Source of the DNA: Halorientalis persicus
GTDB taxonomy: Archaea > Halobacteriota > Halobacteria > Halobacteriales > Haloarculaceae
Reading direction: 5' to 3'
Length of the DNA stretch: 64,000 bases
NCBI RefSeq assembly: GCF_900110215.1
Contig: NZ_FOCX01000006.1
Location: forward strand, 1 to 64,000
Positions 53,320 to 56,804 of this stretch are shown piece by piece. The translations under genes were made by a program, and so were the position numbers. The number at the start of each line of letters is the position of its first letter. Position 1 is the stretch's first letter. The notes beneath the pieces were generated by a model that saw only the letters and a list, made by a program, of their open reading frames with translations, ran no database searches and was not told where the DNA came from.

Positions 53320-54564
53320 ATGAAGATCGCAGTTTTCGGGGCCGGCTACGCTGGCCTGACGCTCGCTCGACGGCTGGAGCAACAGCTCCCGCCCGAGGTG
53401 AATCTGGTCGTCGTCGACGAGGACGAGGCCCACCTCGTCCAGCACGAACTCCACCGCGCGATCCGTCGGCCGTCCATCGCCGAGGACATTACGGTTCCGC
53501 TGACGGAGTGCTTCGAGCGTGCGGAGATTCGGCAGGCTCGGGTTACCGACCTGGATGCAGAGGCGGGGGTCGCCACGCTCGACGGCGACGAGGAACTCGC
53601 CTACGACGTCGGGGCGGTCTGTCTCGGTGCAGAGACGGCCTTCTATGACCTGCCGGGCGTCGAGGCCCACGCGACGCCGCTGAAACGCCTCGACGACGCC
53701 GAGCGGATCAGGGCCGACGTGCTCGAAGCGTTCGACGCCGGCGACGCCCGGATCGTCGTCGGCGGGGCCGGGCTGTCGGGGATCCAGGTCGCGGGCGAAC
53801 TCGCCGCGCTGGCCCGCGAGGTGGGGGCTGGTGACGCCGCTGAGATCACGTTACTCGAACAGCAGGAAACCGTCGCGCCGAACTTCCCCGAGCGGTTCCA
53901 GCGTGCGGTCGACCAACAGCTCCGGGACCGCGGGATCACGGTTCGGACGGACGCGGCCGTCGATGGGGCCGACGGGAACACGATTACTCTCGACGGCGGG
54001 ACCACCATCGACTACGACGTGTTCGTCTGGACCGGGGGCATCCGCGGGCCGGACGCACTGGCCGGCGACCGCCCGCTGGTTCGGAGTCGGCTCCAGCTAG
54101 CCGGTGACACGTTCGTCGTCGGCGACGCCGCCCGCGTCGTCGATGCCGATGGCCAGGCCGTCCCCGCGAGCGCGCAGGCGGCTATCCGCGAGGCCCGCGT
54201 GGCGGCGGCGAACATCGAGAAACTCGTCGACCACCGCATCGGGGACAGTAACGGCGAATTCGAGCCGCGCCTCGAGGACTTCCAGTTCGACTCGCCGGGC
54301 TGGCTGGTCAGCGTCGGCGACGGCGCGGTCGCACAGGTCGGCGGGACGGTCCTGACCGGCCCGGCCGCCGTCGCGCTGAAGGCGACCGTCGGCGTCGGCT
54401 ACCTGACCTCGGTCGGTGCCGTCCGGAAAGCCGTCGGGCTCGTGGGTGAAGAACTGGATCTCGACGGCGTTCCGGACGAGGCCGTCGACGCATTCGAGGA
54501 AGAAGACGGCGAACCGGCGGCCGTGGACGTAGCGGTCGACGAGGAAGAAGACGGCAACGATTAG
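53320..54564 (+). CDS. NDH-2-like NAD(P)/FAD oxidoreductase
   Basis: The 414-residue flavoprotein has two Rossmann motifs: FAD-binding VFGAGYAGLTLARRLEQQL at the N-terminus and NAD-binding VVGGAGLSGIQVAGELAALA (about residues 146-165). The third motif FVVGDAARVVDADGQAVPASAQAAIREARVAA (about 265-296) is diagnostic of NDH-2 enzymes. It likely passes electrons from NADH to quinone on the inner face of the membrane. A long acidic tail (about residues 385-414) follows. It overlaps the convergent cheW gene by four bases. Confidence 0.88.
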   Translation: MKIAVFGAGYAGLTLARRLEQQLPPEVNLVVVDEDEAHLVQHELHRAIRRPSIAEDITVPLTECFERAEIRQARVTDLDAEAGVATLDGDEELAYDVGAVCLGAETAFYDLPGVEAHATPLKRLDDAERIRADVLEAFDAGDARIVVGGAGLSGIQVAGELAALAREVGAGDAAEITLLEQQETVAPNFPERFQRAVDQQLRDRGITVRTDAAVDGADGNTITLDGGTTIDYDVFVWTGGIRGPDALAGDRPLVRSRLQLAGDTFVVGDAARVVDADGQAVPASAQAAIREARVAAANIEKLVDHRIGDSNGEFEPRLEDFQFDSPGWLVSVGDGAVAQVGGTVLTGPAAVALKATVGVGYLTSVGAVRKAVGLVGEELDLDGVPDEAVDAFEEEDGEPAAVDVAVDEEEDGND

Positions 54565-55811
54565 GACGAGGAGTTCAGCGCGAGGTCGGGCGTCGTCCAG
54601 ACGATGAAGTCGTCCTCGTCCTCGCGGTTGATGATGCCGTTGATGTGTTCGTCCTCCTCGTCGGGCGACTCGTTGACCTCGTCGTCGCTGACGGGTGTGA
54701 CCTGTCGGACCTCGTCGACGACCCAGCCGAGGTGGCCCTGCTCGTCCATCTCCTCGGAGTCGAAGACGACGATGAGGTCGCCACGGCCCTCGTCCTCGAC
54801 CGCGAGGGCGTCCTTGGGGTTGATGATCGCCGTCACCTGCCCGCGCAGATCGACCACGCCCTCGACGTAGGACGGCGAGTTGGGAACCCGGGTCATGTTC
54901 TCCAGTTCGACGATCTCCTCGATGTACTCGATGTCGAGACAGAACCGTTCCTCGCCCAACTCGAACTCCAGGACCCGCGTTCGGTCGCTCGCGTGGGCCG
55001 TGCGTCGACCCGCCGCGGCCGCTCGTGCGGCGGCGACGGTCCCCTCGGCGTCCAGCATCGACTGCTCGTCGTCCTCCGAGACCGTCGTCGCCTGATCCGG
55101 GATGGCGAAGGTCCCGCTTCCCGACAGTGCGTCGACAGCTTCGGCCGCGTCGGCCGAGGACACCGTCGACGCGACGCCGGATTGGGGCGTCGTTCGTTCG
55201 GCCGTCTCGGTCGCCGCCTCCGTGGTCGCCGTCTCATCGTCGCTGTCGTCGCTCGCCGTGTCGTCGCCGTCCTCGTCCGCGGCCGACTCCGCGAACTCGA
55301 AGCCACTCGTCGCCACGGCGTCGGATTCGTCAGCGGCGTGTTCCCGCCCGTTCTCGCTGTCGCCCCGATCGTCGGTATCGGTGGCTGTGGCATCGGCCGC
55401 GTCCTCGGTCTCCGTGACACCGCCGGCGTCGGCCGCTGGGTCCGCCGATCCGGCGTCCTCGTCGGCCGAGGCCGCGCCGGCGGTATCGCTCGCGTCCGTC
55501 GGGGCGTCTGCCGGTGGGTCCGCGGCCGGATCGACCGTCTCGTCGATCGTCGGTGTCGATCCGGCGTCGTCGTCGGCTCCCGTGATATCGTCGGTCTCGG
55601 CAGCGGCCGGTTCAGTATCCGCCGTGGCCTCGTCCGTTGCGTCGGATTCGTCGGCCGGTGGTTCACTCTCGGTCTCGCCACCGTCGGCGGTCGCGTCGGA
55701 CTCGTCCGCGTCGTCGCTCTCGTCGTCCGTGGGTGCGCGGCGTCGTCCTTCGCGCATCTCTCGAATGCGGTTCGCCCGTTCCATCCGGTCGTTGGTGTCC
55801 TCGTCGCTCAT
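54561..55811 (-). CDS. CheW-domain protein with long acidic disordered N-terminus
   Basis: The 416-residue protein has a CheW domain at the C-terminus (about residues 277-416): RVLEFELGEERFCLDIEYIEEIVELENMTRVPNSPSYVEGVVDLRGQVTAIINPKDAL, the classic scaffold fold linking receptors to CheA. The first 270 residues are Asp, Glu, Ala, Thr-rich and low complexity, far longer than a normal CheW of about 150 residues. It overlaps the ParA-like gene by four bases (ATGA), so the two are translated together. This suggests positioned or clustered signalling arrays. No other che gene is in the window. Confidence 0.88.
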   Translation of the reverse strand: MSDEDTNDRMERANRIREMREGRRRAPTDDESDDADESDATADGGETESEPPADESDATDEATADTEPAAAETDDITGADDDAGSTPTIDETVDPAADPPADAPTDASDTAGAASADEDAGSADPAADAGGVTETEDAADATATDTDDRGDSENGREHAADESDAVATSGFEFAESAADEDGDDTASDDSDDETATTEAATETAERTTPQSGVASTVSSADAAEAVDALSGSGTFAIPDQATTVSEDDEQSMLDAEGTVAAARAAAAGRRTAHASDRTRVLEFELGEERFCLDIEYIEEIVELENMTRVPNSPSYVEGVVDLRGQVTAIINPKDALAVEDEGRGDLIVVFDSEEMDEQGHLGWVVDEVRQVTPVSDDEVNESPDEEDEHINGIINREDEDDFIVWTTPDLALNSSS

Positions 55812-56707
55812 TGTGGTATCTCCTCTATGAATCCGAACTGCCTGTCCAGATCGGCGGCGATCTCCAGGAATCGGTCGGCCATGTCCACCGTCGGGTCGTA
55901 CGCGAACAGCGACTGGCCGCTGGAGAAGGCCCGCTGGAGCGCGACCCGCTTGCGGACCGACCAGACCGGCACGTCCTCGAACACGGCTTCCAGCCAGTCG
56001 AGCATCTCTGCGTCCTCGTTGGTCGACTCGACCCGGTTGGCGACGACGCCGACCTCCCGCACCGTCTCCCCGGTGCGATCCTCCAGCGCCGCGATCTGGT
56101 CGAACAGGAGTTCGATGGCCCGCTCGGAGGTGGCCTCGGTCAGTGCCGGGATCAAGACGTTGCCCGTCGCGTAGATCGCGGTGTCGGTCAACTGGCCGTA
56201 GAACGGCGGCGAGTCGACGATCACGTAGTCGTAGTCGGTGAGCTCGTCGAGTACCTGCTCCAACCCGTCCAGTGCCGTGTCGCCGGTGATCGTGTCCGGT
56301 CCGACGTTGATCGTCAGCGGTTCCAGCACCGCGGGATCCACGTCCAGCGACGGGTCGGCGTCGAGCTTGGTCATCACGTTGGCCAGCGTCAACTCGTGTT
56401 CGGCCTGGAGCATATCGATGCTACTGGGCAACACGTCCATCTCGTCGTGGGAGCGGATCAGGTCGTGGACCGCCGACCGCTGGTCGGGGTCGGTCAGGAC
56501 GTCGAACAGCGTCGGCGGTGCCGCGTCGTAGGCTTCGACCAGACCCAGCCCCTCCGTGGCGTTGCCCTGCGGGTCGAGATCGACGAACAGCACGTCCCGC
56601 CCGCGCTCGTTCAACGCGCCCGCGACGTTGATCGCCACCGTCGTCTTCCCCGTCCCGCCCTTGGCGTTTGTCACACAGAGCGCCGCGGGACGGTCGTTTC
56701 GATGCAT
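55808..56707 (-). CDS. ParA/Soj-family ATPase
   Basis: The 299-residue P-loop ATPase has a deviant Walker A NAKGGTGKTTVAINVAGALNERG (about residues 13-36), VDLDPQGNATEGLGL (Walker A' region) and VIVDSPPFYGQLTDTAIYATGNVLIP (Walker B region). ParA proteins position DNA or protein complexes, and ones linked to chemotaxis genes are known to place receptor arrays in bacteria. Here it overlaps a cheW gene. There is no parB downstream. A TATA-like box (56737-56746) lies about 34 bases before the ATG. Confidence 0.93.
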   Translation of the reverse strand: MHRNDRPAALCVTNAKGGTGKTTVAINVAGALNERGRDVLFVDLDPQGNATEGLGLVEAYDAAPPTLFDVLTDPDQRSAVHDLIRSHDEMDVLPSSIDMLQAEHELTLANVMTKLDADPSLDVDPAVLEPLTINVGPDTITGDTALDGLEQVLDELTDYDYVIVDSPPFYGQLTDTAIYATGNVLIPALTEATSERAIELLFDQIAALEDRTGETVREVGVVANRVESTNEDAEMLDWLEAVFEDVPVWSVRKRVALQRAFSSGQSLFAYDPTVDMADRFLEIAADLDRQFGFIEEIPQ

Positions 56708-56736
56708 CGCTACTACCGGTGGTCGGTCACCGCTCC

Positions 56737-56746
56737 TTATAAAAAT
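56737..56746 (-). promoter_or_regulatory. TATA-like box for the parA-cheW operon
   Basis: The strand complementary to ttataaaaat reads atttttataa. Its centre is 34 bases before the ParA ATG (56707), so the leader is only about seven bases. It is the most perfect TATA box in the window. Confidence 0.65.
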
Positions 56747-56776
56747 CCGCTCCCGATTCTCAATTGTTGTAGAGGG

Positions 56777-56804
56777 GACGTGCCGCCGGTTCCGGCGGCA
56801 CGTC
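56777..56804. promoter_or_regulatory. Perfect inverted repeat upstream of the parA-cheW operon
   Basis: GACGTGCCGCCGG (56777-56789) and CCGGCGGCACGTC (56792-56804) form a perfect 13-base-arm palindrome around TT. It lies between the divergent parA and lipoprotein promoters, about 36 bases upstream of the parA TATA box. A parS-like centromere or an operator is plausible. Confidence 0.7.

Follow-up and report, generated by a model that had tools for sequence, protein, structure and literature searches.

In Vibrio, the ATPase ParC, which works with the landmark protein HubP (PMC10241942), is encoded immediately upstream of ParP, whose N-terminal portion binds ParC and is joined by a long proline-rich linker to a CheW-like domain that inserts into chemotaxis arrays (PMC5706961). 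In the PpfA/TlpT system of Rhodobacter sphaeroides, an orphan ParA segregates chemotaxis clusters over the nucleoid (PMC9178275, PMC10241942), and bacterial ParA partners divide their tasks between a charged disordered N-terminus, which binds the ATPase and stimulates it, and the remainder of the protein, which binds the cargo (PMC10241942). For archaea, the accessible literature that we found implicates only MinD-type proteins, those of Haloferax, in the placement or inheritance of chemosensory arrays; MinD4 and MinD2 of Haloferax volcanii are ATPases of the ParA/MinD superfamily that affect polar CheW foci (PMC11588486). Here we describe a parA-cheW gene pair of the haloarchaeon Halorientalis persicus, located in a stretch of 64,000 nucleotides (positions 1 to 64,000 of contig NZ_FOCX01000006.1, referred to as the window), whose products probably act as a cargo-positioning pair with the chemoreceptor array as cargo, a role that we read from sequence and predicted structure.

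The two genes (Table 1) share four bases, ATGA, as the first-pass annotation of the window had observed. Its further claim of one promoter for both genes appears likely, because a TATA box (read on the + strand as TTATAAAAAT) is conserved upstream of parA; a similar T-rich box (TATTTTTATA-like) was found approximately 30–40 nt before parA in 31 of the 32 relatives examined. The box is strikingly uniform among these loci, and its distance from parA suggests a near-leaderless transcript.

Table 1. Features of the parA-cheW locus in the window, and of two neighbouring genes at locus L115 of a relative.
Feature	Position	Strand	Basis or remark
parA, 299-residue ParA/Soj-type ATPase	55808..56707	-	Pfam AAA_31/CbiA, AlphaFold 2 (AF2), Foldseek; stop codon included
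Deviant Walker A motif KGGTGKTT, including the signature lysine, parA residues 16-23	56639..56662	-	motif definition, PMC9178275
parA residues 252-259, RKRVALQR, basic patch, candidate non-specific DNA-binding site	55931..55954	-	conservation
ATGA overlap of parA stop and cheW start	55808..55811	-	four shared bases; same -4 overlap in relatives
TATA box	56737..56746	-	30-39 nt upstream of parA start codon
cheW (ParA-linked), 416 residues: N-terminal peptide, acidic linker, CheW domain	54561..55811	-	stop codon included
cheW residues 1-24, arginine-rich peptide, proposed ParA-binding site	55740..55811	-	modelled helix 3-20, conservation
cheW residues 25-276, variable acidic disordered linker	54984..55739	-	composition, conservation, model
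cheW residues 277-416, CheW domain with receptor-groove positions L281, I294, I297, I300	54564..54983	-	Pfam, alignment
Small orphan ArlD/E-domain gene, adjoins Salactin gene	L115:5321-5803	-	
Salactin gene	L115:4087-5178	-	

The ATPase resembles Soj: the KGGxxK[S/T] sequence of Soj-like (type Ib) ParA proteins is present as KGGTGKT at residues 16–22, and the ATPase domain starts by residue 10, with no N-terminal helix-turn-helix domain. A Foldseek search with the AF2 model (mean predicted local distance difference test score, pLDDT, of 91.6) returned Soj, ParA, and McdA structures first (9a6n, 8ray, 6nop, 2bej), with MinD lower. The C-terminus is acidic as judged by eye, shows no obvious membrane helix, and is modelled without a helix after residue 290; given this and the Foldseek ranking, a MinD-type membrane ATPase is not favoured. 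The nearest ParA at a named locus is that of H. regularis (96% identical), while the best haloplasmid match reaches 60% identity and the nearest plasmid matches are haloarchaeal. In the basic patch, R252, K253, R254, Q258, and R259 are invariant among 16 sequences; in a larger set of 36, R252, R254, and Q258 are invariant and R259 is conserved in at least 90%. This stretch aligns with its counterpart in structures of the ParA family, and we infer that it may bind DNA.

The partner has a clear CheW domain (Pfam match to residues 280–400, 76 bits; cut-off 23.5) preceded by a long acidic region. About 270 disordered acidic residues had been described earlier as a tail of this protein; their amount is as described, but they precede the CheW domain, which is itself C-terminal, and a C-terminal acidic tail is therefore rejected. 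Residues 1–276 contain 30% D+E and carry a net charge of −69, and the protein model shows pLDDT < 50 for nearly all of residues 34–275, a helix at residues 3–20 (block pLDDT 75–86), and a partly resolved CheW fold. The groove positions L14, V27, I30, and V33 defined for the T. maritima CheW (PMC5706961) correspond to L281, I294, I297, and I300, all kept hydrophobic. Conservation follows the same three parts: among 28 Haloarculaceae-type CheW partners, M1, R9, R12, A13, R15, R17, R20, and G22 are invariant, no invariant residue occurs at positions 23–278, and invariance resumes in the CheW domain, with mean identities of 0.70 for residues 1–24, 0.06–0.28 for the linker, and 0.73 for the CheW domain. 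The N-terminal extension of paired CheW proteins ranges from 91 to 415 residues with a median of 199 (60 partners; of the 61 counted elsewhere, the missing one is probably that of locus L126), while unpaired CheW proteins (n = 45) have an upper-bound median of 12 residues.

The same partner and overlap recur in dozens of genomes, which makes the pair more than a chance association, and chance neighbours were rejected as an explanation. A scan of named genomes with ParA, in which the best 80 of 233 relatives were kept, yielded 46 Haloarculaceae-type loci in which parA is followed by a gene for a long CheW or, at L089, by a gene that the contig end cuts short. The four-base overlap is present at the start of 59 of 61 CheW partners (51 from named loci, that of the window, and nine others). 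Pair and overlap are thus conserved in relatives, and the pairing has withstood the comparison that the first-pass annotation had put forward as a way to refute it.

Presence of the pair also follows that of CheA. Among 146 genomes of the family, 82 carry a ParA ortholog (E ≤ 1e-80) and 98 a CheA dimerisation domain (96 above the curated cut-off). CheA was found in 81 of the 82 ParA-bearing genomes, the exception (G172) being 58% complete, and in 17 of the 64 genomes without ParA (Fisher p = 1e-22, shared ancestry ignored). The numbers of genomes without ParA and without CheA were obtained by subtraction from tallies, 44 and 28 matchless genomes, respectively, being unlisted. One genome from the same genus as the window genome (G110) has neither ParA nor CheA.

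In Halorientalis persicus, the pair lies away from the che cluster, as the only other CheW domains of the genome, those of CheW1 and CheA, are at two places in contig C82; the pair is thus not inside a chemotaxis operon, as ParC/ParP are. The earlier statement that no other che genes accompany the pair holds for this species but not for relatives. In Natrialbaceae, where at least eight pairs were picked by eye among the long frames listed, cheA lies approximately 2.5 kb or less from parA in seven of the eight pairs examined. The order at one Natrialbaceae locus (L066) is cheA-cheB, divergent from parA-cheW-cheW1, followed by a gene for a protoglobin-methyl-accepting chemotaxis protein and a CheC-family gene; just past the latter, this che cluster contains a gene (L066:12411-13034, + strand) for a second, small ParA/MinD-like protein of 208 residues. 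The available part of a report on the Natrialba magadii che operon describes two distantly related cheW genes and mentions no parA (PMC3403918). A search of the phylum, in which eight candidates were scored per genome, gave at least nine of 294.

The arginine-rich peptide is shared by partners that have no CheW domain. The motif RxxR[ILV]xx(x)[RK], sought in the first 60 residues of each protein, was found in 61 of 61 CheW partners, 26 of 26 small non-CheW partners, and all three truncated partners, as compared to 3 of 431 control proteins (other proteins of the same flanks) and none of the 45 CheW proteins without ParA. This count covers the 80 named loci, the window locus, and nine further loci, and leaves out seven (L027–L033), of which L031 has a partner that also carries the motif; L126 was scored as a CheW partner, with its CheW match continuing in another frame. 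At this Haloarcula rara locus (L126:6867-7972, + strand), the cheW frame appears to be broken between linker and CheW domain, by a frameshift or a sequencing error. A motif-bearing partner in Halococcus thailandensis (L109:6888-7370, + strand) has a small plasmid-type C-terminal part in place of CheW, and the ParA at that locus is 66% identical to that of the window.

The ParP-like order of parts, the intact groove, the basic stretch of ParA, and the precedent of bacterial ParA partners lead us to propose that the pair positions or segregates arrays over the nucleoid. ParA-ATP dimers would bind the nucleoid through their C-terminal basic patch, and the CheW domain of the partner, judging from its conserved groove residues, would enter receptor arrays. 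The N-terminal arginine-rich helix would dock on ParA and bring about ATP hydrolysis and release, for which ParB/Spo0J, including the arginine finger of ParB (PMC9178275), and other ParA partners provide precedents, while the long acidic linker may give peptides on an array the reach to contact ParA on the nucleoid and keep them from sticking to the DNA. Through repeated binding and release, arrays could be placed, or segregated at division, much as in Vibrio ParC/ParP or Rhodobacter PpfA/TlpT. The core of the original suggestion, that the pair positions signalling clusters, is supported by the conservation of pair and overlap, the near-strict co-occurrence with CheA, the proximity of cheA in Natrialbaceae, and the N-terminal peptide.

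Several points weigh against this proposal. Function is deduced here from the gene pair, its overlap, the anatomy of the partner, the co-occurrence with CheA, and the shared peptide; the peptide motif was written after the sequences had been seen, and the relatives in which it was counted are not independent. Two more distant ParA proteins of Halorientalis persicus have partners without the motif, indicating that the motif follows this ParA clade; as a universal signature of haloarchaeal ParA partners the peptide is rejected. The model of the CheW domain is poor in its middle (pLDDT < 50 for residues 299–361). Eight of the 17 CheA-bearing genomes without a ParA ortholog belong to one genus (g4), which indicates that chemotaxis can do without the pair. 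Since arrays in Haloferax are already affected by MinD2 and MinD4 (PMC11588486), positioning by a further system may be redundant. Genus g4 may also offer a natural comparison for array placement.

The genes around the pair extend the comparison to motility and cell organisation. Divergent from parA, 37 of the 46 Haloarculaceae-type loci carry a gene for an ArlD/E-domain protein of approximately 160 residues (PF04659, 104 bits in L115), and 30 of the 46 have Salactin in the fetched flank (PF25229, 619 bits in L115). In Halorientalis persicus, these two genes are found together on another contig (L170:6542-7063 and L170:5403-6452, respectively). Salactin grows from the cell poles, affects DNA distribution, and has been implicated in DNA partitioning (PMC10746226). 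Through these neighbours the locus is connected with motility and with the organisation of the cell poles, but they also leave room for a DNA-related role.

Array positioning was weighed against four other explanations. The long CheW could regulate array composition by competing with CheW1 for receptors, with ParA setting only its availability or location; Halobacterium salinarum CheW2 binds receptors and not CheA, and a competition model has been proposed for it (PMC3579733). In keeping with this explanation, the window CheW keeps the groove but falls in a clade separate from CheW1. Regulation of this kind would, however, leave unexplained both the long linker and the conserved N-terminal peptide common to plasmid-type partners; moreover, none of the Halobacteriaceae CheW proteins in our set is paired or carries the peptide. 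We regard this explanation as unlikely. Less likely still is a reversed logic, in which polar arrays would be the anchor by which ParA moves or orients chromosomes, making the pair a DNA-segregation system: the similarity of ParA to the partition ATPases of haloplasmids (60% identity to the best plasmid match) and a flanking Salactin, with its link to DNA partitioning (PMC10746226), in 30 of 46 loci would fit it, whereas ParA occurs in just one of the 48 family genomes that lack CheA, and the pair sits beside cheA in Natrialbaceae.

The remaining two explanations appear highly improbable. The arginine-rich N-terminus might itself bind DNA and tether arrays to the nucleoid, as FrzCD of Myxococcus is reported to do (PMC5716589), leaving ParA with another role; however, residues 1–24 hold seven Arg and seven Asp/Glu, are near neutral, and adjoin a strongly acidic linker, and the motif tracks ParA, being absent from all 45 unpaired CheW proteins. 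To a similarly small degree we credit a pair that positions the archaellum or polar cap and not receptor arrays, as the ArlD/E-domain gene beside the pair in 37 of 46 loci could suggest, given that the adaptor has a CheW domain whose receptor groove is intact and that Halorientalis persicus has the pair without an adjacent ArlD/E gene.

The pairing of this ParA with CheW appears to have arisen more than once. A ParA tree of 97 rows divides the CheW-linked ParA proteins into two groups, one of Haloarculaceae type and one from Natrialbaceae, and the latter falls among ParA proteins with small partners (Shimodaira-Hasegawa approximate likelihood ratio test values of 83–87). Forcing all CheW-linked ParA proteins together was rejected by an approximately unbiased (AU) test (p = 0.031) on a reduced set, which left out the long branches L132, L146, L143, and L136 as well as L031, L033, L158, L159, L117, L118, and L121 (broken or near-identical), with truncated loci uncounted. 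A tree of CheW domains (78 rows from a chosen subset of loci, 132 columns, long branches L078 and L079 left out) placed paired CheW proteins in separate groups from Haloarculaceae (18 members; group values 93/95), Natrialbaceae (13; 100/98), and Haloferacaceae (2; 100/100), and an AU test rejected holding the Haloarculaceae and Natrialbaceae groups together (p = 0.005). A single ancestral CheW pairing is disfavoured by these tests, although an ancestral pairing with many losses is possible; long branches, and a CheW tree of only 132 columns, make error possible. The simplest reading is at least two separate origins of CheW pairing, with the same kind of peptide and an acidic linker in each. 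Two Haloferacaceae loci, L080 (genome G124) and L129, represent a third, very long-branched ParA-CheW lineage with CheW partners of more than 500 residues.

A broader proposal, to which we would give an even chance of being correct, is that the partition modules of haloplasmids, each made up of a ParA and an arginine peptide at the N-terminus of its partner, serve as portable cassettes for positioning, and that their cargo domain was swapped for CheW at least twice independently, producing a convergent archaeal counterpart of ParC/ParP. The Haloarculaceae cassette would have settled beside the archaellum-domain protein and Salactin, in what may be a polar-organisation locus joining arrays, archaella, and DNA.

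Haloplasmid modules are one natural comparison. On Halobacterium salinarum pHS4 and Haloarcula pHsi139, a ParA approximately 50–60% identical to that of the window overlaps a gene for a hypothetical protein by the same four bases, and partners of this type carry the N-terminal motif; they differ in that a small C-terminal part replaces CheW, and a Pfam search with three such partners gave no match above cut-off. Halobacterium salinarum CheW2 is likewise an additional CheW encoded away from the main che cluster (PMC3579733), whereas the Halobacteriaceae counterparts examined are unpaired and without the peptide, the one at L072 being short and located, by our reading, in the arl region. At this locus, a MinD/Mrp-like ATPase gene (L072:2208-3155, + strand) directly follows a membrane-protein gene read as arlJ-like and precedes, by 0.8 kb and in the same orientation, the short CheW gene and a transducer gene; a similar MinD/Mrp-like ATPase and CheW occur at L073:14835-16352 (− strand), also in Halobacteriaceae. 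With an ATPase of this type, 0.8 kb from a different CheW, the L072 arrangement was rejected as an instance of the same pair. Halobacterium salinarum has a gene called parA1 close to cheW2; the Halobacteriaceae loci examined have a MinD/Mrp-like gene there.

MinD4 and MinD2 of Haloferax volcanii are of the MinD type, with no cheW linkage described in the available part of the report (PMC11588486), while the ATPase described here is Soj-type. TlpT of Rhodobacter sphaeroides is not a CheW but forms the cluster together with CheW proteins (PMC9178275). In Halothiobacillus neapolitanus, ParC and a partner annotated as CheW are encoded by overlapping genes, as in the haloarchaeal pair (compared by description), and the N-terminal peptide of that partner was docked on the ATPase in silico (PMC10241942); this system differs in being bacterial. 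Like ParC/ParP, the haloarchaeal pair has the ATPase gene directly upstream of the adaptor gene, and its adaptor repeats the layout of ParP, in which a long linker separates an N-terminal part (here a putative ATPase-binding one) from a CheW-like domain at the C-terminus. The ParP domain, however, is nearer to CheA-P5 than to CheW, and its linker is proline-rich (PMC5706961), whereas the haloarchaeal pair has an acidic linker, a Pfam CheW domain, and a ParA close to haloplasmid ParA proteins. We liken the pair to ParC/ParP in its probable working only, and do not class it as a member of that system. No description of a haloarchaeal ParA-CheW pair was found in our literature search, from which subscription papers were mostly missing. 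Systems of this kind are known in bacteria; what appears to be new is the form found in haloarchaea, with a plasmid-type ATPase and more than one origin. For organisms like Haloarcula, the pair represents a concrete candidate for array positioning whose adaptor and peptide are defined and can be probed by point mutations, and it suggests how positioning systems may originate: a partition ATPase and its activating peptide are kept, and the cargo domain is exchanged.

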